From the IMG/VR virus record IMGVR_UViG_3300023210_000001, positions 1 to 64,000 of that record: a stretch of DNA of 64,000 nucleotides. One strand, given 5' to 3'. The stretch comes from a virus. How positions within the stretch are numbered: position 1 is the stretch's first letter; every line of letters begins with the position of its first letter. The notes below the pieces were generated by a model, which was not told the DNA's origin, did not search any database, and saw only the letters and a program-made list of their open reading frames with translations. This document shows, piece after piece, positions 1 through 59,470 of this stretch. Position numbers and translations under genes: made by a program.

Positions 1-126
1 CGATTCCTGATCTAACGGATCAAACTTCGTGCAGGTCCGGCGGGAAGTCCGATTCCTGATCTAACGGATCAAACTTCGTGCAGGTCCGGCGGGAAGTCCG
101 ATTCCTGATCTAACGGATCAAACTTC
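1..126. repeat. 49-bp tandem repeat array A1 (left part cut by window edge)
   Basis: About 2.6 direct copies of a 49-bp unit containing 'gattcctgatctaacggatc' and 'ggcgggaagtc'. The unit belongs to the same family as the arrays at 1316-2045 (opposite orientation) and 53930-54245 (same orientation). The array begins outside the window. Bases 1-327 contain no gene: this array, then a 10-bp array, then a hairpin. Confidence 0.9.
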
Positions 127-235
127 GGGAGGGAAGCGGAGGGAAGCGGTGAGAGGCGGAGGGAAGCGGTGAGAGGCGGTGAGAGGCGGTGAGAAGCGGT
201 GAGAGGCGGAGGGAAGCGGAGGCAATCGGTGAGTA
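127..235. repeat. 10-bp purine-rich tandem array (copy 1)
   Basis: Degenerate tandem copies of a 10-bp unit of the type ggagggaagc / ggtgagaggc. It starts abruptly inside a 49-bp unit, after 'caaacttcgg'. The plus strand is almost all purine apart from one C per unit. Open frames here are by-products of the period and are not genes. Confidence 0.85.
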
Positions 236-1181: not shown

Positions 1182-1315
1182 TTTCGACCTGTTTCTTCAG
1201 ATCCCCGGAGGTGCGATGCAATTTTCTGAAATGAGAGATCGACCGGAAAGCGTTGTTCCTGTTGAACTTAGACGGGAATTGTCATTTCAGAAAATTGCAT
1301 CGCACCGTCGGGGAA
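1182..1315. repeat. Long inverted-repeat element E1
   Basis: Two perfect 25-bp arms (1210-1234 and 1282-1306) that start GGTGCGATGC and end CTGAAATGA, extended outward by CCCCG/CGGGG, around a 47-bp centre carrying GACCGGAAAGCGTTG. One of six copies. It sits between the promoter palindrome and the 49-bp array A2, and would form a very stable cruciform or RNA hairpin. Confidence 0.92.
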
Positions 1316-2045
1316 TCGGACTTCCCGACAGAACGGTCCGAAGTTTCATCCGTTAGATCAGGAATCCGACTTCCCGAGAGATCGCTCCGAAGTTTCATCC
1401 GTTAGATCAGGAATCGGACTTCCCGACAGATCGGTCCGAAGTTTCATCCGTTAGACCAGGGATCGGACTTCCCGACAGAACGGTCCGAAGTTTCATCCGT
1501 TAGACCAGGGATCGGACTTCCCGACAGATCGGTCCGAAGTTTCATCCGTTAGACCAGGGATCGGACTTCCCGACAGATCGCTCCGAAGTTTCATCCGTTA
1601 GATCAGGAATCGGACTTCCCGACAGATCGGTCCGAAGTTTCATCCGTTAGACCAGGGATCGGACTTCCCGACAGATCGGTCCGAAGTTTCATCCGTTAGA
1701 TCAGGAATCGGACTTCCCGACAGATCGGTCCGAAGTTTCATCCGTTAGACCAGGGATCGGACTTCCCGACAGATCGGTCCGAAGTTTCATCCGTTAGACC
1801 AGGAATCGGACTTCCCGACAGATCGCTCCGAAGTTTCATCCGTTAGACCAGGAATCGGACTTCCCGACAGATCGCTCCGAAGTTTCATCCGTTAGACCAG
1901 GAATCGGACTTCCCGACAGATCGCTCCGAAGTTTCATCCGTTAGACCAGGGATCGGACTTCCCGACAGATCGCTCCGAAGTTTCATCCGTTAGACCAGGG
2001 ATCGGACTTCCCGACAGATCGCTCCGAAGTTTCATCCGTTAGATA
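1316..2045. repeat. 49-bp tandem repeat array A2, about 15 copies
   Basis: Direct repeats of a 49-bp unit with 'cggacttcccgacagatcgg', 'tccgaagtttcatccgttag' and 'accagggat'; variable positions are few (a/t, g/a). Each unit carries CGGAC...GTCCG as an internal inverted repeat. The orientation is opposite to A1 and A3. No unique spacers, so this is not CRISPR. No gene lies in 1059-2338. Confidence 0.95.
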
Positions 2046-2276
2046 GCGAAGGGAGGCGGAGGAAAGCGAAGGAAAGCGGAGGAAAGCGAAGGAAAGCGAA
2101 GGAAAGCGAAGGAAAGCGGAGGAAAGCGAAGGAAAGCGGAGGAAAGCGAAGGAAAGCGAAGGAAAGCGGAGGAAAGCGAAGGAAAGCGGAGGAAAGCGGA
2201 GGAAAGCGAAGGAAAGCGAAGGAAAGCGGAGGAAAGCGGTGGGAGGCGGAGGAAAGCGAAGGAAAGCGGAGGAAAC
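2046..2276. repeat. 10-bp purine-rich tandem array (copy 2), inside a 49-bp unit
   Basis: About 23 copies of ggaggaaagc / gaaggaaagc, very regular. The left edge is 'catccgttagat', and after the array the 49-bp unit resumes with 'caggaatcgggcttcccg', so the array interrupts a unit. One strand is pure A/G except for one C per repeat. Confidence 0.92.
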
Positions 2277-11087: not shown

Positions 11088-11222
11088 TTTTCGACCTGTT
11101 TCTTCAGATCCCCGGAGGTGCGATGCAATTTTCTGAAATGAGAATTCGACCGGAAAGCGTTGTTCCTGTTGAACTTAGGCGACAATGGTCATTTCAGAAA
11201 ATTGCATCGCACCGTCGGGGAT
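11088..11222. repeat. Long inverted-repeat element E2
   Basis: Perfect 25-bp arms at 11119-11143 and 11189-11213. Same centre motif (GACCGGAAAGCGTTG...CCTGTTGAACTTAG) and same position upstream of a promoter as E1. Confidence 0.92.
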
Positions 11223-11235
11223 CCGGCGAAACGGT

Positions 11236-11264
11236 CCGGGGAGAGGATCGACTCCCCTCCCCGG
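11236..11264. terminator. 3' hairpin after the 353-residue gene
   Basis: CCGGGGAG / CTCCCCGG stem 14 bp past the stop at 11279; plus-side tail 'ctgtcg', so no clear U-tract on either strand. Confidence 0.45.
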
Positions 11265-18052: not shown

Positions 18053-19477
18053 TTATACCCCGGAACAATAAACAACTTTTTCCAGTTCCGCCCGAGTCAT
18101 TTTTTGAGCCATTGACTTCTTTTTCCCGAGAACCTCGGAAATGCTTTCGTCGACCGAATCTCTCATGACGAGATCGATGTATCGGACTGCGTTCTTCGTG
18201 CCGATCCGGTGGTTCCGATCCTCCGCTTGCATTCGGTCTTCCGCCGAGAATCCCTGCGAGTAGAAGATCGCCGTCTCCGCCGCCGTCATGGTCAAGCCGT
18301 ACTGAGCGACGCCCGCCTGAGCGACGACGACCTTGATCTCGTTCGCCTGAAGTGCCCTCACCGACTCCGCTCGCTCGGCGGTGTCTTCGTTTCCGGTGAT
18401 CCTACCGAACGACACGCCAGCGTCGTCGAGTGCTTTACAAATGTTGTCGAGGTCTTTTTTGAAACAAGCCCAAACGATCAACTGTCCCGGCGTGTCCTCG
18501 ACGATTCCCAACATCGTCGAAATCTTCTCCGGCTTCGGCGTGATCTCCTTCGCTTTCGGATCAGGACTTTCGGAGTTTCTCTCGTAAACGAAACCGCCGC
18601 AAACCTGACGGAGTTTCGCCAGTTTCGCCAGAGCGTTACCGACGACGACGACGCTTCCGTCTTCGAGTTCGGAGATTAGATCTCGACCGAGTTCCTTGTA
18701 CAACTTTCGGCTCGACGGAGACCAGTCGACCTTGACCCTCTGATAAATCTTGTCAGGCAGATCGAGGCACTGTTTCTTCGTGTGACGGATCGAGACTTCG
18801 AACATCTTTTTCGTTATTTCGTCGAGATGTTGATACCCGGAAACGACGCTGAACGATCTTCCGGAGAAGTGTTTTTTCTCCATCACGGCGTAGCGATTTC
18901 TGAAAGCGAAGAATTTGTCTCCGAACAATCTCGGTTCGACGAACTTGAACTGAGAAAACGCATCGAGCGGCGACTGAGTGATCGGCGTTCCCGTGAGTCC
19001 GATTCGAATCGGATCGAAGTTTCCGCCAGGTCTTGAAAAGTCGTGCATGGCCTTGCTCTGTTTCGCCGTCGGATTCTTGATCCGAGTCATTTCGTCGGCG
19101 ACCACGACAGACCAGTCTTTTCCGCCAGCGAGGACATTGCTCTTTTTCCTGACCGCCCGAAGCCCTTCGTAGTTGATTAGATACCAGCCGGGTTTGAACC
19201 GTTTCACGGATTCGAGCCGTTTGTGCATCGTTCCGCCTCGCAAGACGAAATGATCGTGGTGGTCGGCGAACTTCATGATCTCTTCCTTCCACACATTGAT
19301 GAGCGTGGCCGGACAGACGACGAGAACTCGGAAATCCCGAAACGGGAACTTACGGTTGACGAACTCGATCACCGATCGGGTCTTCCCTGTTCCTTGTTCG
19401 GAGAGGACGGCGGCGTTCTTCCGTTGCATGAGGAACTCGACCGTCTCTTCCTGGTGAGCGTAGAGCGGCGGTCTCAT
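18053..19477 (-). CDS. SNF2-family DNA helicase/translocase
   Basis: 474 residues, compact phage form. Motif I SEQGTGKT at about 26-33, LVVCPATLINVW (Ia), ADEMTRIKN (DEAH-type motif II variant DEMT), GLTGTPI (III), then the helicase C-terminal domain with IVWACFKKDL, VVAQAGVAQYGL and a final QAEDRNHRIG motif VI. ATP-dependent DNA translocase, probably in replication or recombination. Start overlaps the 38-residue gene (ATGA). A fragment of this gene, positions 19319-19376, is duplicated at 52122-52325. Confidence 0.93.
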   Translation of the reverse strand: MRPPLYAHQEETVEFLMQRKNAAVLSEQGTGKTRSVIEFVNRKFPFRDFRVLVVCPATLINVWKEEIMKFADHHDHFVLRGGTMHKRLESVKRFKPGWYLINYEGLRAVRKKSNVLAGGKDWSVVVADEMTRIKNPTAKQSKAMHDFSRPGGNFDPIRIGLTGTPITQSPLDAFSQFKFVEPRLFGDKFFAFRNRYAVMEKKHFSGRSFSVVSGYQHLDEITKKMFEVSIRHTKKQCLDLPDKIYQRVKVDWSPSSRKLYKELGRDLISELEDGSVVVVGNALAKLAKLRQVCGGFVYERNSESPDPKAKEITPKPEKISTMLGIVEDTPGQLIVWACFKKDLDNICKALDDAGVSFGRITGNEDTAERAESVRALQANEIKVVVAQAGVAQYGLTMTAAETAIFYSQGFSAEDRMQAEDRNHRIGTKNAVRYIDLVMRDSVDESISEVLGKKKSMAQKMTRAELEKVVYCSGV

Positions 19478-21199: not shown

Positions 21200-21325
21200 T
21201 ATTTTCGACCTGTTTCTTCAGATCCCCGGAGGTGCGATGCAATTTTCTGAAATGAAGATTCGACCGGAAAGCGTTGTCCCTGTTGAGGTTATCCCTTGTT
21301 TTTCATTTCAGAAAATCGTTCACGC
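21200..21325. repeat. Long inverted-repeat element E3 (right arm degraded)
   Basis: Left arm intact at 21231-21255. The right arm retains only TCATTTCAGAAAAT (21303-21316) and diverges beyond. The centre is partly replaced. The upstream gene ends inside the element, and its last codons are repeat sequence. Confidence 0.85.
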
Positions 21326-22991: not shown

Positions 22992-24180
22992 TCGCTCCTC
23001 CGATCCAAATTGGTTTAATCCAGGTTTGATGTGCTTCTCGACCGTCCGGGAGATTCACCGTCGACCGATCCGGGTTCGCTCGTCTCCAGTTCTCCGCATG
23101 GGCTTGTCGTCTCCAGTGTCCTCGTCGCCAGTGTGAGCGTTTCGTGGTTCCGTCGCCAGTCCCGTGATCGGTCCCACCGGAACGGTCGTCGTCGACGACG
23201 GGCGTCCTGAGTTCTTGGATTCGTAGTGATTCGATTTTCTTCTTCTTCGGGTTTCCCGGTTTCGGACCGCTCGATGTGACGATCTTCGTTTGTAGATATT
23301 CCGGGTAAGAACTCATAATCTGAATCATCGTCGAAAGAACATTCAGCGAGGTGAGGAACCCTTGTCTCGACTGTTCGAGCGGAGTCTCGGGTTCTCGATT
23401 CGAAAGATACATCTTCCGCATTTGTGCGGCTTCGTCTTGATACAGCGTCGAGCAAAAACTATCGAGAAGCGTTCTTCCTTCGTAGATCGGAACGACGAAA
23501 GTTTCGAGAATTCCTCGATCGGCTCGAACGATCTCCGATTCGAGTATCTTTTTCGGAGTGCCTCGCCCGATCAATCCGTTCGCTCCGACGCATTGCAAGC
23601 CGTCGATCGAGACCAACGGAACGCCAGCGGTGGATTCGTAGGAATGATACTGCGTCGAAGCGATCAAACCGACGACGGTCTGAGTCTCGAAGAATCCGTT
23701 CCCTGATTGAAATCTTGCCAACCGTCTTTTCCCGCCGACCATGTATTCGATCGAACCGGGATCGGACAACAGATCGTCGGCAGCATAGTGCCTGACCAAC
23801 TGGAAATGCGACATCGTGTCTCGAACTCTTCTCGGGAACCAAAGACCGAACGACGGAATCGTCTGCTTCAATTCTTCGCCTTTGATTGACTGAAGACAAT
23901 CCGTATTCTCGGCGTCGGTCAACACCGATCCGTCGACAGCGACCAGTCGTTCTCCGGCTTTTTTCCAGGCTTGGAGAACGGCGAGTTGACCGCCGACGGA
24001 GTTTTGTCCGGATAGGAACTTCCGAGCGTCGTCCGGATTCGGGAACTCCGCTCGAAGCGTTTCCGCCGCCGCTCTGGCAGCGACATCGAACATCGAGTCC
24101 GATATGTTGAACGCTCCGTCGACATTTTCCCAGAACCTGTCCGGCAACGCAGGGAGTGATTTGTCGAAGACCTTCTTCAT
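22987..24180 (-). CDS. Large unknown protein with HWRxGHWR C-terminal motif
   Basis: 397 residues. Mostly helical N-terminal two thirds (DAAFNIS-type start, LRAEFPNPDDARKFL, GLWFPRRVRDTMSHFQLVRHYAADDLLSD). The basic tail has SHWRRGHWRRQ and, at the very end, QTWIKPIWIGG. A C-terminal HWRxGHWR...WIxPxWxG motif occurs, as far as I recall, in many phage and plasmid proteins of unknown role. ATG at 24180 in a TAATG overlap with the upstream gene. Second gene of the P9 operon. Confidence 0.7.
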   Translation of the reverse strand: MKKVFDKSLPALPDRFWENVDGAFNISDSMFDVAARAAAETLRAEFPNPDDARKFLSGQNSVGGQLAVLQAWKKAGERLVAVDGSVLTDAENTDCLQSIKGEELKQTIPSFGLWFPRRVRDTMSHFQLVRHYAADDLLSDPGSIEYMVGGKRRLARFQSGNGFFETQTVVGLIASTQYHSYESTAGVPLVSIDGLQCVGANGLIGRGTPKKILESEIVRADRGILETFVVPIYEGRTLLDSFCSTLYQDEAAQMRKMYLSNREPETPLEQSRQGFLTSLNVLSTMIQIMSSYPEYLQTKIVTSSGPKPGNPKKKKIESLRIQELRTPVVDDDRSGGTDHGTGDGTTKRSHWRRGHWRRQAHAENWRRANPDRSTVNLPDGREAHQTWIKPIWIGGAK

Positions 24181-25423: not shown

Positions 25424-25560
25424 TTTTCGACCTGTTTCTTCAGATCCCCGGAGGTACGACGCAATTTTCTGAAATGAGGAATCGACCGGAAAGCGTTGTT
25501 CCTGTTGAACTTAGACGGGAAATGTCATTTCAGAAAATTGCATCGCACCGTCGGGGATCC
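25424..25560. repeat. Long inverted-repeat element E4
   Basis: Arms at 25453-25477 (two changes: GGTACGACGC) and 25525-25549. Centre as in E1. Upstream of P10. Confidence 0.9.
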
Positions 25561-25572
25561 GACGAAACCGAA

Positions 25573-25606: not shown

Positions 25607-25861
25607 TTATGGTCTCCAGCCGTTGACGACTTCGACCACTGCCTTCGCTGAACAAGAGTGACGAGCGAAGGAAGCCATCACGGAACGGGCTGTTTTCTCT
25701 GCTGCGGCTTCTGATCCGTGCCAGGATCGAACATGGTCGCTCGCTTCGTCGCCGAGCCGTGAAACCCCTCCGGTATAGATCACGACCACATGAGTGTAGT
25801 TTGCACGGGTTGTTCTCGTGAACACTCTGCCGTTTACTTCGTGGCTGAGTTTCATTTTCAT
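25607..25861 (-). CDS. Small cassette protein, RVFTRT family member 2
   Basis: 84 residues, start at 25861 (MKMKLSHEVNGRVFTRT). Paralogue of the gene at 25036. Monocistronic, from P11. Confidence 0.75.
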   Translation of the reverse strand: MKMKLSHEVNGRVFTRTTRANYTHVVVIYTGGVSRLGDEASDHVRSWHGSEAAAEKTARSVMASFARHSCSAKAVVEVVNGWRP

Positions 25862-42513: not shown

Positions 42514-42866
42514 TACGAAACCGTCCTAATCTGAATTGATTGTTTCACTTTTCGAGTCTGACTGTCGCCGAGAACGAGCGACCAGATCATATAATATTGA
42601 CCAGCGACCAGGGAAGTCGTGTCGGACGCATTCATCGTCACGCTGGTTCTCTTCGAGGATCTGATCCCGGTCGTGACGGACACGGTGAGATCGGTCAACG
42701 CCACCGAAGCCGCCGATCCGGTTGAATCAAAGAGGGTCGCCGTCCCCGAAGAGATCGTGAATGCCTGAGCGTTCACCTCGTCGAAATCAGCCGACACCAC
42801 GACGGTCGTTCCCGAGGTCAACATCAGGCTCCCTTTGATCGTCGCATCGTAAAGCATCACGCTCAT
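42513..42866 (-). CDS. Small beta-rich structural protein
   Basis: 117 residues. Ig-like strand pattern (KGSLMLTSGTTVVVSADFDEVNAQAFTISSGTATLF...QYYMIWSLVLGDSQTRKVKQSIQIRTV). Resembles phage decoration or BppU-like N-terminal domains. No catalytic motif. Confidence 0.55.
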   Translation of the reverse strand: MSVMLYDATIKGSLMLTSGTTVVVSADFDEVNAQAFTISSGTATLFDSTGSAASVALTDLTVSVTTGIRSSKRTSVTMNASDTTSLVAGQYYMIWSLVLGDSQTRKVKQSIQIRTVS

Positions 42867-45826
42867 CGTTTCTCCTTCAATAATCCTTCGAGAGAAATCG
42901 TCGCAGGTTTCCCTCTTACCGATGTTATCGCAGAACGCCCCTCAAGAGCAATCGTCATTGTCGAACCGGCGAGCAACACATCCGCCGTTGCAGACACGAG
43001 GTGCGTTTGATCGGAGACCTCGCCGATTTCGACAATCTCCGATGATTTTACCGGAGAAACGAATCTTGACTCTGCGACCGAAATTCCCTCTTGCGAGAGT
43101 TCGAGATATCCGGAAAGAGTTATCCCGGCTTCCGAAATGGTCAAGATCTCGGTCGTCGTCGTGGTGCAACCTTTTGAGATTTGCTCTCCGACGGAAACCG
43201 TCTCCCCTTCGAGTATCGTTGACGACTGCTCCCTGGATTCGACTTCCGTGATCGTCAACGATTCCGACCCGGATACCGAAGCGTTCCAGTCGAGGGCGAA
43301 CGACTCCCCGGTGGTGATCGTCTCCGTGGCGATCTTCTTGGCAGAGATCAGCGTTGTTTCTCCGAGCGTCACCGATTCGGCGACCTCTTCGACTGATCCT
43401 TCGATAGCGATCTCTTCTGAGGCATTCTCCGAGACCGTGACGCTCTCCGTTACGGATTGCGTGTACCCGACAGAGGTCGTTGAGGTCTCTCCGATGGTCA
43501 GCGATTCTTCCGCCGTTGCCTCCGTCGCCGTGAGTTCCGCTACGATCTGTTCGGTCGTCGTTACCGTTTCCGCCGAAACTATCTCCGCCGTGAAGGTCGT
43601 TTCGGATTGTTCTCCGAGGAACACCGATTCGGCGACCTCTTCGACCGCTCCTTCGATGACGATCTCTTCGGCGACATTCTCCGAGACGGTGACTGTCTCC
43701 GTCTGGAGGATCAGTTTTGAAATGTCGATGATCGGCGATTCGGAAACCGCTACGGTCTCGACGACTTGTTCAACGGCGAACTCGGCGATCATTTGCTCTT
43801 CGGTGAGCGTCTCGGTCGCAGTCACCGTTTCCGTTGCAACCTTCTCGGCTGTCACCGTGAGAGAATCGACCTCGGTCGCTGTGACCGTCTCCGTGTCTGA
43901 GATCTCGGCTGTCACCGTGAGGGAATCGGCCTCCGTCGCCGTGACTGTCTCCGTGACTGCGGCCTCGGTCGCAAACACGAGGGAATCGACCTCCGTTGCG
44001 GTGACCGTTTCCGTGTCTGAGATCTCGGCCGTCACCGTGAGAGAATCGACCTCGGTCGCTGTGACCGTCTCCGTGTCTGAGATCTCGGCTGTCACCGTGA
44101 GGGAATCAGCCTCCGTCGCCGTGACTGTCTCCGTGACTGCGGCCTCGGTCGCAAATACGAGGGAATCGACCTCGGTCGCTGTGACTGTCTCGGTGATCTG
44201 TTCGACGGCGAACTCGGCGATCATTTGCTCTTCGGTGAGCGTCTCCGTCGCAGTCACCGTTTCCGTTGCAACCTTCTCGGCTGTCACCGTGAGGGAATCG
44301 ACCTCGGTCGCTGTGATCGTCTCGGTGGATGAGATCTCGGCTGTCACCGTGAGGGAATCGACCTCGGTCGCAGTGACTGTCTCCGTGACTGCGGCCTCGG
44401 TCGCAAATACGAGGGAATCGACCTCGGTCGCTGTGACTGTCTCGGTGGATGAGATCTCGGCTGTCACCGTGAGGGAATCGGCCTCCGTCGCCGTGACTGT
44501 CTCCGTGACTGCGGTCTCTGTCGTAAATGCGAGGGAATCGACCTCGGTCGCCGTGACTGTCTCCGTGGCTGCGGTCTCTGTCGTAAATGCGAGGGTATCG
44601 ACCTCGGTCGCCGTGACTGTCTCCGTGTCTGAGATCTCCGATGTCACTGCGAGAGAATCGACCTCCGTCGCCGTGACTGTCTCGGTGATCTGTTCGACGG
44701 CGAACTCGGCGATCATTTGCTCTTCGGTGAGCGTCTCCGTCGCCGTGACCGTCTCCGTGTCTGAGATCTCGGCTGTCACCGTGAGGGAATCGACCTCGGT
44801 CGCCGTGACCGTCTCCGTGTCTGAGATCTCGGCTGTCACCGTGAGGGAATCAGCCTCCGTCGCCGTGACTGTCTCCGTGGCTGCGGTCTCTGTCGCAAAT
44901 GAGAGAGCATCGACCTCGGTCGCCGTGACCGTCTCCGTGTCTGAGATCTCGGCTGTCACCGTGAGGGTATCGACCTCCGTCGCTGTGATCGTCTCGGCGA
45001 TCTGTTCGACGGCGAACTCGGCGATCATTTGCTCTTCGGTGAGAGCCTCCGTTGCGGTGATCGTCTCCGTTGCGGTGATCTCCGTCGCCGCTGCGAGGGA
45101 ACCGACCTCCGTCGCCGTGACCGTCTCCGTCGCCGTCTGTGAGTGAGCCGTTCCTGCGGCACTCGCCGCCCGGAATGCTATATGCCACGAAACCCAATCT
45201 CGCCCACCAGGAGCATTACAAGACAGACCAGTCGCAATCGTTGTGCCTGTGTCGAGATCCTGCATCATTCCGATGGTGCCCTGGCCGCCCGTACCTGAGA
45301 GTTGTGCATCGATTGAGAAGCCTGTTGGTGATGGATTCGTGAATGTCGTATCTCTCGACCAGCCGACAAAGCCAACTTGTATAAAGTTGCCGCTGCCAGT
45401 CGGAGCCGCAACGAGGGACCATGCAACATTGCCGTTTCCTGTGTTGCCGCCACCTGTTAAAACATCAGCCGCTCCTCTGTACACGCTCACCGTGCATTTC
45501 TGTCCAGACCCTCCGTAACCAGTTCCGGTTGTTATCCTGTCTTCCGAGTTCGTCCCATGAGTTGCAGTAGTCCATTTTCCCCACCACACAGACAGCATCG
45601 CATTGCCATTTGTGCTGTAGTCCAGAAGTGACAGTGCGTGAGATGAAGTGTTGGCTGAATTCCTGAACCTCGGAGCCTCGCCAGCGACATCAGGGATATT
45701 GTCAGCATCCTTGCCGCCCATGACACCAACCAAAACGATGTCGCCATCTGCGAACGCCGTACCCGGAACAATGACCGCACCATCCGGGTTGCCGATTGTG
45801 GTGATATACGGATTGGTAATCGCCAT
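42863..45826 (-). CDS. Giant repetitive structural protein (20-residue repeats)
   Basis: 987 residues. The N-terminal 220 residues form a Gly/Thr-rich beta domain (GFSIDAQLSGTGGQGTIGMMQDLDTG). Residues about 230-660 are dozens of 20-residue repeats of the form ETVTATEVDSLTVTAEISDT, encoded by exact 60-bp periods. These are followed by a decaying variant (ESVTVSENASEEIAIEG) and a short C-terminal domain. Strongly acidic, Thr/Val/Glu-rich. Likely a long fibrous surface spike or head fibre. The mirror plus-strand frame across the repeats is an artefact. Confidence 0.8.
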   Translation of the reverse strand: MAITNPYITTIGNPDGAVIVPGTAFADGDIVLVGVMGGKDADNIPDVAGEAPRFRNSANTSSHALSLLDYSTNGNAMLSVWWGKWTTATHGTNSEDRITTGTGYGGSGQKCTVSVYRGAADVLTGGGNTGNGNVAWSLVAAPTGSGNFIQVGFVGWSRDTTFTNPSPTGFSIDAQLSGTGGQGTIGMMQDLDTGTTIATGLSCNAPGGRDWVSWHIAFRAASAAGTAHSQTATETVTATEVGSLAAATEITATETITATEALTEEQMIAEFAVEQIAETITATEVDTLTVTAEISDTETVTATEVDALSFATETAATETVTATEADSLTVTAEISDTETVTATEVDSLTVTAEISDTETVTATETLTEEQMIAEFAVEQITETVTATEVDSLAVTSEISDTETVTATEVDTLAFTTETAATETVTATEVDSLAFTTETAVTETVTATEADSLTVTAEISSTETVTATEVDSLVFATEAAVTETVTATEVDSLTVTAEISSTETITATEVDSLTVTAEKVATETVTATETLTEEQMIAEFAVEQITETVTATEVDSLVFATEAAVTETVTATEADSLTVTAEISDTETVTATEVDSLTVTAEISDTETVTATEVDSLVFATEAAVTETVTATEADSLTVTAEISDTETVTATEVDSLTVTAEKVATETVTATETLTEEQMIAEFAVEQVVETVAVSESPIIDISKLILQTETVTVSENVAEEIVIEGAVEEVAESVFLGEQSETTFTAEIVSAETVTTTEQIVAELTATEATAEESLTIGETSTTSVGYTQSVTESVTVSENASEEIAIEGSVEEVAESVTLGETTLISAKKIATETITTGESFALDWNASVSGSESLTITEVESREQSSTILEGETVSVGEQISKGCTTTTTEILTISEAGITLSGYLELSQEGISVAESRFVSPVKSSEIVEIGEVSDQTHLVSATADVLLAGSTMTIALEGRSAITSVRGKPATISLEGLLKEKR

Positions 45827-49629: not shown

Positions 49630-49717
49630 GAGGGAAGAACCTTTCCTCCCTCTCATAAAAACAAGTATAGGACAAATCTGAGACAGGTCAACCCTATTTC
49701 GGTTTTTCTCGAAAGTA
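49630..49717 (-). promoter_or_regulatory. Promoter cassette P12
   Basis: -35 TTGACC at 49686-49691, -10 TATACT at 49664-49669, palindrome TTTCTCGAAA at 49705-49714, 5' stem-loop at 49630-49652. Confidence 0.9.
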
Positions 49718-50310: not shown

Positions 50311-50628
50311 TCGGGAGGGAAGCGGAGGGAAGCGGGAGGAAGCGGGAGGAAGCGACGGGAAGCGGAGGGAAGCGGAGGGAAGCGGTGGGATGCGGAGGGA
50401 AGCGTCGGGAAGCGGTGGGAAGCGACGGGAAGCGGGTGGATGCGACGGGAAGCGGGTGGATGCGACGGGAAGCGGGTGGATGCGACGGGAAGCGGGAGGA
50501 AGCGGGTGGATGCGACGGGAAGCGGGAGGAAGCGGGTGGATGCGACGGGAAGCGGGTGGATGCGGGTGGATGCGGAGGGAAGCGGGTGGATGCGACGGGA
50601 AGCGGGTGGATGCGGAGGGAAGCGGTCG
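50311..50628. repeat. 10-bp purine-rich tandem array (copy 3, longest)
   Basis: About 32 units of 10 bp: gggaagcgga, gggaagcgac and ggtggatgcg types alternating. It fills the gap between promoter P13 and the 97-residue gene, whose stop codon is 13 bp away. Both strands read open as low-complexity peptides; rejected as genes. Confidence 0.92.
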
Positions 50629-50640
50629 GTCCGCCGCCCG

Positions 50641-50934
50641 TTACTCTCCCTCCACGAAGGACTCGACCGCTTCCTTCTTCGTGTCGTATCCGTCCGCCCT
50701 CGGCGACTGTTGATCTTCGTCGTCGGCTTCGAAGGTGTACCATTTCGTGGGCATCATGCCTTCCCCGTCGACTCGCTTGACGATCCCGATGACCTCGCCA
50801 TTCCTGACGACTTGGTATTCTCCTTCGAGCCACTGCCCGGGGAACCACTCGGCGATGTTCTCCTCGGTGACTCCCGCTTTCCTCGCTTGGTTCTTTGTCT
50901 CTTCGAGGCTGATTCGTTTCGTTGTGATTTTCAT
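50641..50934 (-). CDS. Unknown 97-residue protein
   Basis: Start at 50934 (MKITTKRISLEETKNQARKAGVTEENIAEWFPGQWLEGEYQVVRNG). Two-part: helical start, then strands (EVIGIVKRVDGEG...WYTFEADDE). Not recognised. Its promoter lacks the usual 5' stem-loop. Confidence 0.7.
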   Translation of the reverse strand: MKITTKRISLEETKNQARKAGVTEENIAEWFPGQWLEGEYQVVRNGEVIGIVKRVDGEGMMPTKWYTFEADDEDQQSPRADGYDTKKEAVESFVEGE

Positions 50935-50945
50935 GTTGTTCCTTT

Positions 50946-51019
50946 CCTCTCTCTTATATAAACAAGTATAGGGCAAATCTGGAACGGGTCAACCCCATTT
51001 CGGAAGTTTCTCGAAAGTT
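50946..51019 (-). promoter_or_regulatory. Promoter cassette P14 (no leader stem-loop)
   Basis: -35 TTGACC at 50987-50992, -10 TATACT at 50965-50970, palindrome TTTCTCGAAA at 51007-51016. The leader is short (AGAGAGGAAAGGAACAAC) and lacks the hairpin. Confidence 0.88.
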
Positions 51020-51066
51020 TTTTTCGACTTGAGGACGGGTCGATTCTCTGCGAAGATCGAGGAATC

Positions 51067-51489
51067 ATGCGATCCGTCACGAAAAACATCATCACCGCCG
51101 ACGAAGCCGAGAGCCTGATCTCTGGTCGACTTCCTGCGATCTCCGTCGTTGGACACTCGGTCCTCGACAAGATCAAGGCAGCGGTCGAAGAGGTCGTCGG
51201 GGCGGTCTCGTGGCGGTCGCCGTCCTACGCTCTGATCGGAGGACGGAAGACGGGTCACGACTGGCACTGCGATATCGGTGCCGAAGACAAACCCGGCTTC
51301 CAGGACATCAGATGGTGTCGATGGGGTTGCTCGATTCTGCTCCGAGACCGGGGCGATGTCGGCTACATCGAATACCGGGACGGCTCGAAGATCCACAATT
51401 ACCTCGACCTCGTGATCCACAGCAGCGATGTCGAACATCGAGTCCCTGCCAGCGAAGATAGAGTCGTGTTTCTTTGCTTCATCGCCTAG
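51067..51489 (+). CDS. 2OG-Fe(II) oxygenase-like protein (only plus-strand gene)
   Basis: 140 residues. Double-stranded beta-helix pattern with H67-C-D69 (HDWHCDIGAED), distal H124 (DVEHRVPASED) and R132 (EDRVVFLCF), the HxD...H...R set of Fe(II)/2-oxoglutarate dioxygenases. GAGGA precedes the ATG. The codon-position pattern is better than that of the opposite strand. Such enzymes hydroxylate nucleotides, DNA bases or proteins. It lies between the divergent P14 cassette and a shared hairpin at 51519; no plus-strand promoter was found. Confidence 0.7.
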   Translation: MRSVTKNIITADEAESLISGRLPAISVVGHSVLDKIKAAVEEVVGAVSWRSPSYALIGGRKTGHDWHCDIGAEDKPGFQDIRWCRWGCSILLRDRGDVGYIEYRDGSKIHNYLDLVIHSSDVEHRVPASEDRVVFLCFIA

Positions 51490-51518
51490 TTGTCCTCCTG
51501 CCACTGAAAGCAACCAAG

Positions 51519-51547
51519 CCGGGGAGAGGATCGACTCCCCTCCCCGG
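51519..51547. terminator. Shared 3' hairpin between convergent genes
   Basis: CCGGGGAG / CTCCCCGG stem between the plus-strand oxygenase-like gene and the minus-strand 73-residue gene, with 'cttggtgttccttctttcg' on the plus side. The surrounding 80 bp duplicate 240-320. Confidence 0.6.
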
Positions 51548-51583
51548 CTTGGTGTTCCTTCTTTCGTTTCCGTTTCTCGTGGT

Positions 51584-51805
51584 CTAGCCTCGATTAGTCG
51601 ATCGGTAGTTGATCCTCCACGGAGTGGCAAGCAACTCCGTGAGACTCACACCGTCAGCGATCGCTTCGGCGACGGTAGTGGTTGCGACCGATACGCCGTT
51701 GATGACGGTGACCCAGTGATCGGGGAAAGACACCTCGGTGCCCTCGACGAGAGCGGTTGCGACGATCATTTTGTGATTCGGCTTGTAATCTCTTTGTTCC
51801 AACAT
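51584..51805 (-). CDS. Unknown 73-residue cassette protein
   Basis: MLEQRDYKPNHKMIVATALVEG..., with beta strands and VAEAIADGVSLTELLATPW. Not recognised. From P15. Confidence 0.7.
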   Translation of the reverse strand: MLEQRDYKPNHKMIVATALVEGTEVSFPDHWVTVINGVSVATTTVAEAIADGVSLTELLATPWRINYRSTNRG

Positions 51806-51836
51806 TGTGTTCCTTCTTTCGTTTCTGTTTCTCGTT

Positions 51837-51925
51837 GAGGGAAGAACCTTTCCTCCCTCTCATAAAAACAAGTATAGAGCAAATCTGAGACGGGTCAACC
51901 CTATTTCGGAAGTTTCTCGAAAGTT
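51837..51925 (-). promoter_or_regulatory. Promoter cassette P15
   Basis: -35 TTGACC at 51893-51898, -10 TATACT at 51871-51876, palindrome TTTCTCGAAA at 51913-51922, 5' stem-loop at 51837-51859. Confidence 0.9.
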
Positions 51926-52078
51926 TTTTCCGGTCGGTTTCGGTCGGTTTCGGTCGGTTTCTTCAGATCGCCGGAGGTGCGATGCAATTTTCTGAAATGA
52001 GAAATCGACCTTAAAGCGTTGTCTCTGTTGAACTTAGGCGTGAATTCTCATTTCAGAAAATCGTTTCCACCAGCCGGG
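51926..52078. repeat. Long inverted-repeat element E5 (right arm degraded)
   Basis: Left arm intact at 51976-52000; the right arm keeps TCATTTCAGAAAAT (52048-52061) and then diverges, as in E3. The edge facing the promoter holds three tandem copies of 'ggtcggtttc'. 51806-52329 contains no gene: promoter, this element, then the split helicase fragment with its array. Confidence 0.88.
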
Positions 52079-52121
52079 GATCTGAATGACAGGCTCTTTT
52101 TTTGACTAGATTCGACGAAAT

Positions 52122-52325
52122 GACTAGAACTCGGAAATCCCGAAACGGGAACTTGATGCGTCGGGAAGCGGAGGGATGCGTCGGGATGCGGAGGGATGCG
52201 TCGGGAAGCGGAGGGATGCGTCGGGAAGCGTCGGGAAGCGGAGGGATGCGTCGGGATGCGGAGGGATGCGTCGGGAAGCGGAGGGATGCGTCGGGAAGCG
52301 ACGGCTGACGAACTCGATCACCGAT
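52122..52325 (-). pseudogene. Fragment of the SNF2 helicase gene split by a 10-bp array
   Basis: 52122-52154 and 52301-52325 together match 19319-19376 of the helicase gene (coding for VIEFVNRKFPFRDFRVL) with two substitutions. They are separated by about 146 bp of 10-bp repeats placed between the codons for FP and FRDF. It has no promoter or start and is not expected to be expressed. Confidence 0.88.
52155..52300. repeat. 10-bp tandem array (copy 4) within the helicase fragment
   Basis: About 14 units of gatgcgtcgg / gaagcggagg type. Ends with 'gggaagcg' directly before the resumed helicase sequence 'acggctgacg'. Confidence 0.92.
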
Positions 52326-52329
52326 GACG

Positions 52330-52764
52330 CTACGAGATCTTCAGTTCGCCTTCGTCGAGACCTGCTCGAACTCGTTTCCCGAGAATCCGAACGGTGGCGA
52401 TGACTTGATCCAGGTTCGGGCAATCCGTTTTGAACTCGACATCGGAGCCGTCGTGCCAGCCATATATTCGGAATCGTTTGAATCTCGGAACCTTGTCGGC
52501 GAGCGAGAAAATCTCGTCGGGTTCCCCGTTGAGTTTGAACCCGCTCGAACTGTTCCTGCTGACCGTCGCTTTCGTCAGGGTCACCGTGTACGGAACCCAA
52601 ATCCACGAACCCGCCTCTCGACACGCTCCGAAACACCGCAAGAACCGTTTTCGACCGGATCGGATCTTGTCGACTCGATCATACAGATCCGTTTTTTTCA
52701 CTTTCAACAGCGATCCACATTTCCGAGATTCGTCGACCCAGGACAGGATGTTGAATTGGGACAT
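52330..52764 (-). CDS. Unknown 144-residue protein
   Basis: Start at 52764 (MSQFNILSWVDESRKCGSLL). Basic, with CFGACREAGSWIWVPYTVTLTKATVSRN and an ending RAGLDEGELKIS. Not recognised. Second gene after the 117-residue gene; a GACTCCG/CGGAGTC hairpin (52772-52792) lies between. Confidence 0.65.
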   Translation of the reverse strand: MSQFNILSWVDESRKCGSLLKVKKTDLYDRVDKIRSGRKRFLRCFGACREAGSWIWVPYTVTLTKATVSRNSSSGFKLNGEPDEIFSLADKVPRFKRFRIYGWHDGSDVEFKTDCPNLDQVIATVRILGKRVRAGLDEGELKIS

Positions 52765-52819
52765 CGAGCAGACTCCGTTCCGTCCGGAGTCTACCCGAGG
52801 TCCGTTTCGATTCAACCGC

Positions 52820-53173
52820 TTACCGGGTCTTGAGCATCAACCACCCTCCGAGGAAAACGCTCGGGCCGTCGCCGGGGAGAATCTCGATCTGACAGCGAAT
52901 CCGGGGGCGACTCGACCCGTTCTGAATCTTCCGACCAGTGATCCGCAAGTTCACGGCGTACTCGACTTTGATGCTTGGGGAGTCGAGGTAGAAATCGAAT
53001 CCGAACTCCTCCGAGTACCCGGAGGGCTTCGCTTGAGATCCGATCGAGTCCCAACCGTCGACGACGACCGTTCCGGTGAAGTCGTAGTTGTAAATGTTGC
53101 CGAACTCTTCTCCGGCGATCACTTCTCCGACGGTCTCGACTTTAGTTCCTCGGGGCGTTTCGGTGGTTGTCAT
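52820..53173 (-). CDS. Unknown 117-residue cassette protein
   Basis: Start at 53173 (MTTTETPRGTKVETVGEVIAG). Beta-rich (FTGTVVVDGWDSIG, GFDFYLDSPSIKVEYAVNLRITG). Not recognised. From P16. Confidence 0.7.
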   Translation of the reverse strand: MTTTETPRGTKVETVGEVIAGEEFGNIYNYDFTGTVVVDGWDSIGSQAKPSGYSEEFGFDFYLDSPSIKVEYAVNLRITGRKIQNGSSRPRIRCQIEILPGDGPSVFLGGWLMLKTR

Positions 53174-53199
53174 GTTGTTCCTTCTTTCGTTTTCTCTTC

Positions 53200-53288
53200 G
53201 AGGGAAGAACCTTTCCTCCCTCTTATAAAAACAAGTATAGAGCAAATCTGAGACGGGTCAACCCTATTTCGGAAGTTTCTCGAAAGTT
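53200..53288 (-). promoter_or_regulatory. Promoter cassette P16
   Basis: -35 TTGACC at 53256-53261, -10 TATACT at 53234-53239, palindrome TTTCTCGAAA at 53276-53285, 5' stem-loop at 53200-53222. Confidence 0.9.
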
Positions 53289-53424
53289 ATTTTCGACCTG
53301 TTTCTTCAGATCCCCGGAGGTACGATGCAATTTTCTGAAATGAGAAATCGACCGGAAAGCCTTGTTCCTGTTGAACTTAGGCGTGAATTGTCATTTCAGA
53401 AAATTGCATCGCACATCCAGGGAT
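53289..53424. repeat. Long inverted-repeat element E6
   Basis: Arms at 53319-53343 (GGTACGATGC) and 53391-53414. Same centre as E1. Upstream of P16. Confidence 0.9.
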
Positions 53425-53438
53425 TCGACGAAACCGAA

Positions 53439-53467
53439 CCGGGGAGAGGATCGGCTCCCCTCCCCGG
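53439..53467. terminator. 3' hairpin after the 106-residue gene
   Basis: CCGGGGAG / CTCCCCGG stem 14 bp beyond the stop at 53482; plus-side tail 'cttggtttggttcg'. Confidence 0.5.
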
Positions 53468-53481
53468 CTTGGTTTGGTTCG

Positions 53482-53802
53482 TTACTTCGGCTGCTTGTTC
53501 GGCGGGTAACCGTTGATCCAGAGTTCCCTGTTCGCCTCGGTGACGGCGGCGATATCACAGAACTCTTCAAGTCCTTGAACCTTGTCAAGAATGATATCTC
53601 TGCCTGAGTAGTTCCCGATCGTGATCTCTCCGTTGAACTTGCGAATGTACCCCGTTGTTCCGTACAACGGTTTGCCATTCACTTTTCGAACATGGAGAGG
53701 AGCATCTCCACAAGTCCTCACTTCGACGGTCAGCGTGATCGGTTTTCCCAGCCGAGTCGCTTTGATCTCGCCCGTTTGAACTTCGTTTTCTTGGTTCGTC
53801 AT
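53482..53802 (-). CDS. Unknown 106-residue cassette protein
   Basis: MTNQENEVQTGEIKATRLGKPITLTVEV..., beta-rich, with GEITIGNYSGRDIILDKVQG. Not recognised. From P17. Confidence 0.7.
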   Translation of the reverse strand: MTNQENEVQTGEIKATRLGKPITLTVEVRTCGDAPLHVRKVNGKPLYGTTGYIRKFNGEITIGNYSGRDIILDKVQGLEEFCDIAAVTEANRELWINGYPPNKQPK

Positions 53803-53824
53803 TTTGTTTCCTTCTTTCGTTTTC

Positions 53825-53912
53825 GAGGGAAGAACCTTTCCTCCCTCTCATAAAAACAAGTATAGAGCAAATCTGAGACGGGTCAACCCTATTTCGAACT
53901 TTCTCGGAAAGT
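53825..53912 (-). promoter_or_regulatory. Promoter cassette P17
   Basis: -35 TTGACC at 53881-53886, -10 TATACT at 53859-53864, palindrome ACTTTC-tcg-GAAAGT at 53898-53912, 5' stem-loop at 53825-53847. Confidence 0.9.
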
Positions 53913-58529: not shown

Positions 58530-59470
58530 TAGTTCCCGGCGTCGCTGAGACGGACGATCATGTTGTTGTTCAACACTTTGTACCCGTAGAGCAGATCGAC
58601 CGAGACGAGCCAACGGCTGTATGTGTGCTGATATGACATCATCACACGGAGACCGATTCCGTCCTTCGTCACGGAAGCCGAACGAACGCCGAACTCGCCG
58701 CCAACCGCTTCCAGCGGACGACTGACGAATGTCAGAGCGTTACGGTGGAAGGCGATCGACTGATCGGTGAGAACCTCGGGAGTCGCTCCGTCGGTCGCTT
58801 GAGGAACATTCTGGTCGACATACAGATTCAACCCGAAGATCGTGTTGATGTATCCCGTCCGAATCGCAGGTGGATTGATCCCGGCGGTGTTCGCCTGAAT
58901 GACCTCGCCGATCTGAAGAGCCTCGTGGTAGTGGTCCGGCGACATGACGCAGTTGAGCCGTGAAACCCCTCCGGTCGCAGCGGTCGGAACCTTGTTCACC
59001 ATGAACTGCTTCTGCACTCCGGCGAAGTCCGCAAGAGAGACCTTTGCGACGGCGGTGTCGACGACGGTCGTCCCGGAACCGAGTCCGTCGGTGTTGTTGA
59101 GGAGATCGGCGTCGATCTTCTCGGCCATCGGAATGACCGCTGGCTCCATGAACTCTTCGACCAGATTCTTGATCGAGGTGTCTTGGTCCCTGCTGGTGAT
59201 CCCGAATGCGATGTGTTGATGCTTGTTCAGGGCGACGGTGAGATCTTCCGCCTTCGGAGCCTGAATCGTCATCTGAGTGTTGTTCGTCAGCGGGTTCGCT
59301 GTGAACATCTGCGGTGTTCGAGTGTGTACGACATCGCCCTGTTGAGCGACTTCATCTTCGAAGTCACGGTGAACGAGGTTCGCCACGACATTCGATGCCT
59401 GGAGGAGGAGGAGAGATTCTCTCGCCCAGATCTCCGGCGGGTATACTAGGTCAACGGTTGAAAAAGCCAT
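58529..59470 (-). CDS. Major capsid protein, P22 coat (gp5)-like
   Basis: 313 residues. Start LVYPPEIWARESLLLLQASNVVANLVHRDFEDEVAQQGDVVHTRTP is typical of the P22-coat-like family, followed by DLTVALNKHQHIAFGITSRDQD and LNLYVDQNVP. HK97 fold assumed. Downstream of the scaffold-like and portal genes in the normal order. Expected to be the most abundant virion protein. Confidence 0.9.
   Translation of the reverse strand: MAFSTVDLVYPPEIWARESLLLLQASNVVANLVHRDFEDEVAQQGDVVHTRTPQMFTANPLTNNTQMTIQAPKAEDLTVALNKHQHIAFGITSRDQDTSIKNLVEEFMEPAVIPMAEKIDADLLNNTDGLGSGTTVVDTAVAKVSLADFAGVQKQFMVNKVPTAATGGVSRLNCVMSPDHYHEALQIGEVIQANTAGINPPAIRTGYINTIFGLNLYVDQNVPQATDGATPEVLTDQSIAFHRNALTFVSRPLEAVGGEFGVRSASVTKDGIGLRVMMSYQHTYSRWLVSVDLLYGYKVLNNNMIVRLSDAGN

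Follow-up and report, generated by a model that had tools for sequence, protein, structure and literature searches.

A displaced 58-bp copy of a phage helicase gene segment, split by a 10-bp repeat array

The helicase copy and its surroundings

The window analysed here, a 64,000-nucleotide stretch of DNA, is part of a 65,205-base uncultured virus record, the predicted genes of which lie nearly all on the minus strand and encode, among others, terminase, portal, capsid, tape measure, primase and an SNF2-type helicase. The record begins (window 1-127) and finishes (record 65090-65205) inside one 49-bp repeat array, and the genome is therefore probably circular or permuted, with the array unresolved at the join. 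Searches of phage records returned no DNA matches. A separate 12.7-kb contig (L003; IMG/VR dataset 3300025770) shares 97-99% identity with it over two long stretches. The features of the locus and of the source gene are as follows.

18053-19477, minus strand: SNF2-type DNA helicase, the source gene, 474 aa (PHROG 62 DNA helicase, E 3e-110; Pfam SNF2-rel_dom)
19319-19376, minus strand: the copied 58 bp of the helicase gene, coding for SVIEFVNRKFPFRDFRVLV
51871-51898, minus strand: promoter-like site TTGACC-N16-TATACT of the next gene cassette
51956-52154, plus strand: stretch left of the array where the window and L003 diverge in a cluster: 6 substitutions plus a 10-bp indel in 199 bp
52122-52154, plus strand: left part of the copy, 33 bp, one mismatch against 19319-19351; also in L003
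52155-52300, plus strand: array A4, 146 bp of 10-bp units GGGA(A/T)GCG(GA/TC), G-rich on this strand
52301-52325, plus strand: right part of the copy, 25 bp, one mismatch against 19352-19376; also in L003
52330-52764, minus strand: small gene without an assigned function, ending 5 bp from the copy and possibly starting as far out as 52815

When joined, the two flanks of A4 (52122-52154 and 52301-52325) reproduce positions 19319-19376 of the helicase gene in the same orientation, with 56 of 58 bases identical (for example, CGGCTGACG in the copy where the gene has CGGTTGACG) and with not a single base lost or gained between the halves; the joined sequence matches the helicase with an E-value of 1e-22. 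The DNA match ends at 52122 and 52325. The first-pass annotation had described a 58-bp piece of a core gene, carrying two changes and copied 33 kb away, with a 146-bp array precisely between its halves, and these coordinates and the mismatch count proved exact. It had also named an intact second helicase homologue as a source of the flanks that would overturn this description; tblastn finds a single, uninterrupted helicase gene in the record, the only other traces of note being the two pieces of the copy. A distant source that is intact and a copy that is near-exact are what characterizes a templated insertion. Microhomology at the outer ends of the copy appears weak, with only a handful of bases in agreement close to its left end.

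The left half of the copy is the strongest intergenic-to-coding match of the genome once promoter and terminator repeat families are set aside. Since self-matches in ten codon-shuffled versions of the genome do not exceed 18 bp outside the unshuffled intergenic hairpins, and the longest such self-match in six control phages is 20 bp, the helicase copy is a clear outlier. Two other self-matches, an exact one of 21 bp between the capsid gene and a small gene region (25754-25774 and 58955-58975) and an exact inverted one of 23 bp (23175-23197 and 53056-53078), are slightly longer than the maximum of the six controls. The idea that short self-copying is a habit of the whole genome was encouraged by a comparison with two controls and was dropped because six controls reach 20 bp against 18-23 bp here; the other 18-23 bp self-matches of the genome are close to background and carry no evidential weight.

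Conservation of the copy is not above that of its surroundings (2 of 58 positions differ, against about 0.4%) and its predicted fold is no stronger than that of shuffled sequence. Given the 2 differences in 58 positions, selection shows no apparent sign of protecting the copy, and we infer that it is probably functionless.

The neighbouring small gene has no family match and no relative except in L003. The promoter region with TTGACC-N16-TATACT lies in a repeat of ~120 bp found at 21 places in the record, ahead of many small minus-strand genes (for example, at 49664, 50213, 50965, 51871, 53234, 53859 and 54703); in L003 and in another contig, L011, whole gene cassettes bounded by such repeats are absent, as though the repeats had recombined. 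Another intergenic multi-copy element of ~120 bp with inverted ends (TTCAGATC...TTTTCTGAAATGAGA and TCTCATTTCAGAAAA...GATCTGAA), which is MITE-like or a structured RNA and has no Rfam match, occurs at 51963-52090, about 1190-1315, 11100-11236, 21207-21320, 25425-25568 and 53291-53434.

Turnover of the array and its sister arrays

In L003, both helicase halves lie in the same gap and flank an array of 130 bp, the units of which are largely different from those of A4 in the window. Because L003 carries both halves together with an array of its own, an assembly artefact is unlikely and the copy is shown to be common to the two contigs by descent or exchange. At the left edge of the copy, the gene reads GACGAG, the window GACTAG and L003 GGCGAG, that is, one private change per contig, and the ancestral copy can be read as having differed from the helicase gene at one position, a T to C change common to both. 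The two contigs have zero differences over 1.3 kb to the left (50641-51955) and three substitutions over 52301-53860; between these, the differences cluster in the 199 bp that adjoin the array. Such clustering is expected of a repair or recombination tract, and the stretch looks like one reaching the array. As the array has been largely replaced while 1.3 kb of neighbouring DNA stayed identical, the comparison indicates that A4 turns over far faster than its flanks. Unit number and unit types that vary among close relatives (146 vs 130 bp, largely different units) are the mark of a variable-number tandem repeat (VNTR).

The record holds five arrays of this one 10-bp unit family (A1-A5), all in the same orientation and G-rich on the plus strand. 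The sister arrays of A4, with a 49-bp repeat array adjoining one of them, are as follows.

129-233, plus strand: A1, following a 49-bp repeat array
1312-2043, minus strand: 49-bp repeat array adjoining A2
2045-2275, plus strand: A2, with flanks that join into one 49-bp repeat unit
50312-50625, plus strand: A3, with four extra units at its right end in L003
About 64834-65063 of the record, beyond the window: A5

Blocks of units are shared among these arrays. The L003 counterpart of A4 has 35 bp exactly in common with A1, in its left part, and 24 bp with A4 of the window; its right part has GGGATGCGTC units as in A4 of the window. Two of the four extra units of A3 in L003 are of the GTGAGAGGCG type found in A1 and A5, and A5 itself begins with A1-like units followed by A2-like units. 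A1, A5 and A4 each begin just after AACTT, though A1 and A5 share the context of the 49-bp repeat and count once. The point at which the copy is split, GGGAACTTACGG, is the most array-unit-like 12-mer of the 58-mer, a test chosen after seeing the data, and its fit to a match-guided switch is suggestive.

The first-pass annotation had proposed a search for other arrays with flanks that join into a gene. This yielded one more clean split of an older sequence, A2, which joins into the 49-bp repeat of the phage and not into a gene: its joined flanks align to intact repeat units over 78 bp without gaps, 18 of them on the far side of the array, at up to 98.7% identity. On either side of A5 lies a direct repeat of about 37 bp, and the joined flanks of A1 and A3 gave nothing recognisable. 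A2, A3 and A4 each sit between a gene end and the promoter region of the gene that follows, and transcripts of A1, A3, A4 and A5 would contain 54-57% C and 10-16% G. Across 55 bacterial and archaeal genome stretches, the array motif occurs mostly as short arrays in unrelated, scattered lineages, and no host or donor is indicated.

In relatives further removed, which share the capsid gene family, the tandem arrays are built of quite different units, namely 35 bp (L012), 89-118 bp (L013), 11 bp (L015), 14 bp (L016) and 9 bp (L017), from which arrays seem to be a habit of this phage group. The 9-bp array of L017 was considered as a clean insertion and rejected, its left flank being common with L015 and L016 and its right flank different. 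Long repeats with a 60-bp period also occur at 43843-44995, within a large minus-strand coding sequence (42863-45826) between tail genes, and the L013 contig ends in a similar repeat region. The segment 45149-47007 has 97% DNA identity with L015 (269-2127) across 1.86 kb despite a likeness of only ~65-80% in other genes, which indicates a recent exchange of this segment between phages.

Origin of the copy and of the array within it

The interval 52155-52300 has no gene, no target-site duplication and no known element, and an Rfam search of the window gave no match. A transposon, insertion sequence or MITE was rejected for A4 and A2, as no bases are duplicated at the splits and the array ends differ between relatives. 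A homing element or intron was likewise rejected, given that the 146-bp insert consists of repeats only and the helicase gene is uninterrupted. Of the mechanisms that the first-pass annotation had considered, these observations speak against both a targeted insertion that carried the repeat as cargo and a homing-like event of which the locus would be a relic: the insert encodes no gene itself, is not bordered by a target-site duplication and lacks conserved sequence, its length and most of its units being different in near-identical phages. Its third suggestion, template switching, remains the best guess. A decayed second helicase gene does not fit either, since tblastn gives just two short pieces at the site and the DNA similarity is confined to 58 bp. 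The copy has the same sense as the gene and a fold no better than shuffled, and on these grounds neither an antisense nor a structured RNA is supported.

We hypothesize, with a probability of about 0.6, that the locus is a 58-bp templated self-copy in a non-coding gap holding a hypervariable minisatellite that has been reshuffled among sister arrays. A replicating or broken DNA end would have briefly switched template, resulting in the insertion of ~58 bp of helicase sequence into the gap. The 10-bp minisatellite would have entered the copy later, through a second template switch into a sister array, or else in the same event; GGGAA or AACTT on the left and ACGG on the right may have served as short matches for the second switch. 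Subsequently, the array would have been rebuilt by recombination with sister arrays while both flanks stayed put. In other systems, template switching and microhomology-mediated break-induced replication (MMBIR) are known to yield short templated insertions (PMC2621351, PMC8421209). Four scans of viral contigs, which used two DNA patterns from the copy, a further one from the promoter, and the protein of the adjacent gene, found no copy-free or array-free site, and for this reason the mechanism is one that we infer and the reverse order of events retains some probability. In that order, a break in an existing minisatellite would have been followed by annealing of both ends to GGGAACTTACGG of the helicase gene and copying outwards in one event. 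This would account for the position of the array at the most array-like spot of the fragment, for a copy that ends a short way out on both sides and for sister arrays that lie in similar gaps without helicase flanks. However, it requires the same template to have been invaded twice, independently, with the two pieces meeting to the base, and the left piece carries CTT beyond GGGAA whereas CTT is absent from the array; we regard it as unlikely.

That A2 and A4 each divide an older sequence cleanly and without duplication, that unit blocks are common to several loci and gained in A3 of L003, and that all five arrays have the same strand orientation could also be explained if the arrays were mobile, with a dedicated recombination process of the phage or its host placing blocks cleanly into new positions and the helicase scrap being just one of its targets. 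Against this stand the lack of conserved ends, of a gene in the insert, of an enzyme and of a shared target sequence, the number of clean examples (just two), and the direct repeats of ~37 bp around A5, which is not a clean split; moreover, ordinary recombination between similar arrays accounts for the sharing of blocks. Such a dedicated process is thus decidedly doubtful, as is the related notion that the arrays may be a gene-less element, block-copied to new sites by a recombination-linked process and spread by template switching. It is quite improbable that the array, or the copy and the array together, would be selected, for example as a C-rich Rho-dependent terminator between cassettes or as a decoy for whatever regulates the helicase message. 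The placement of A2, A3 and A4 between a gene end and the next promoter region, and array transcripts that would be rich in C and poor in G, agree with a role of this kind, but the sense of the copy is not that of an antisense RNA, it has neither excess structure nor a sign of conservation, and related phages carry quite different arrays. That an assembler joined unrelated pieces through repeats is conceivable in a record of an uncultured virus, several contigs of the group ending inside tandem arrays; yet L003 repeats the structure, differing in single bases and in the array that it carries, making an artefact exceedingly improbable, even if exact array lengths may still be wrong.

Relation to known systems

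A literature search for comparable phage cases found nothing directly comparable. The copy resembles template-switch insertions (PMC2621351, PMC8421209) in that a short segment of the same genome is placed far off in the same orientation while its source stays intact; those insertions have been described chiefly in eukaryotes, whereas the phage copy holds a minisatellite and is read without a fresh junction or an empty site. The arrays resemble hypervariable minisatellites (VNTRs) in their tandem, degenerate 10-bp units and in a length and composition that differ between near-identical genomes, but the phage has several dispersed arrays of one family with blocks in common, and two of these arrays each make a clean split in an older sequence. 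A minisatellite within another dispersed sequence has been described in Porphyromonas gingivalis (PMC4596501), where the surrounding sequence is reported to be a MITE; in the phage it is a gene scrap present once and not a transposable element. The start-associated sequences of cluster K mycobacteriophages (PMC3203893), conserved repeats ahead of many small genes, may be comparable, by description, to the ~120-bp promoter repeats of this phage and not to the arrays or the helicase copy.

The locus is best read as a mutational scar together with a hypervariable repeat family, and not as a new system or a working gene. It offers a clean record, from nature, of how two mutational processes came together in one phage, viz., the ectopic copying of a core-gene fragment and the rapid turnover of a dispersed minisatellite family. 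Should the arrays indeed enter new sites, they could serve as strain markers and as a means of following template switching while a phage replicates.
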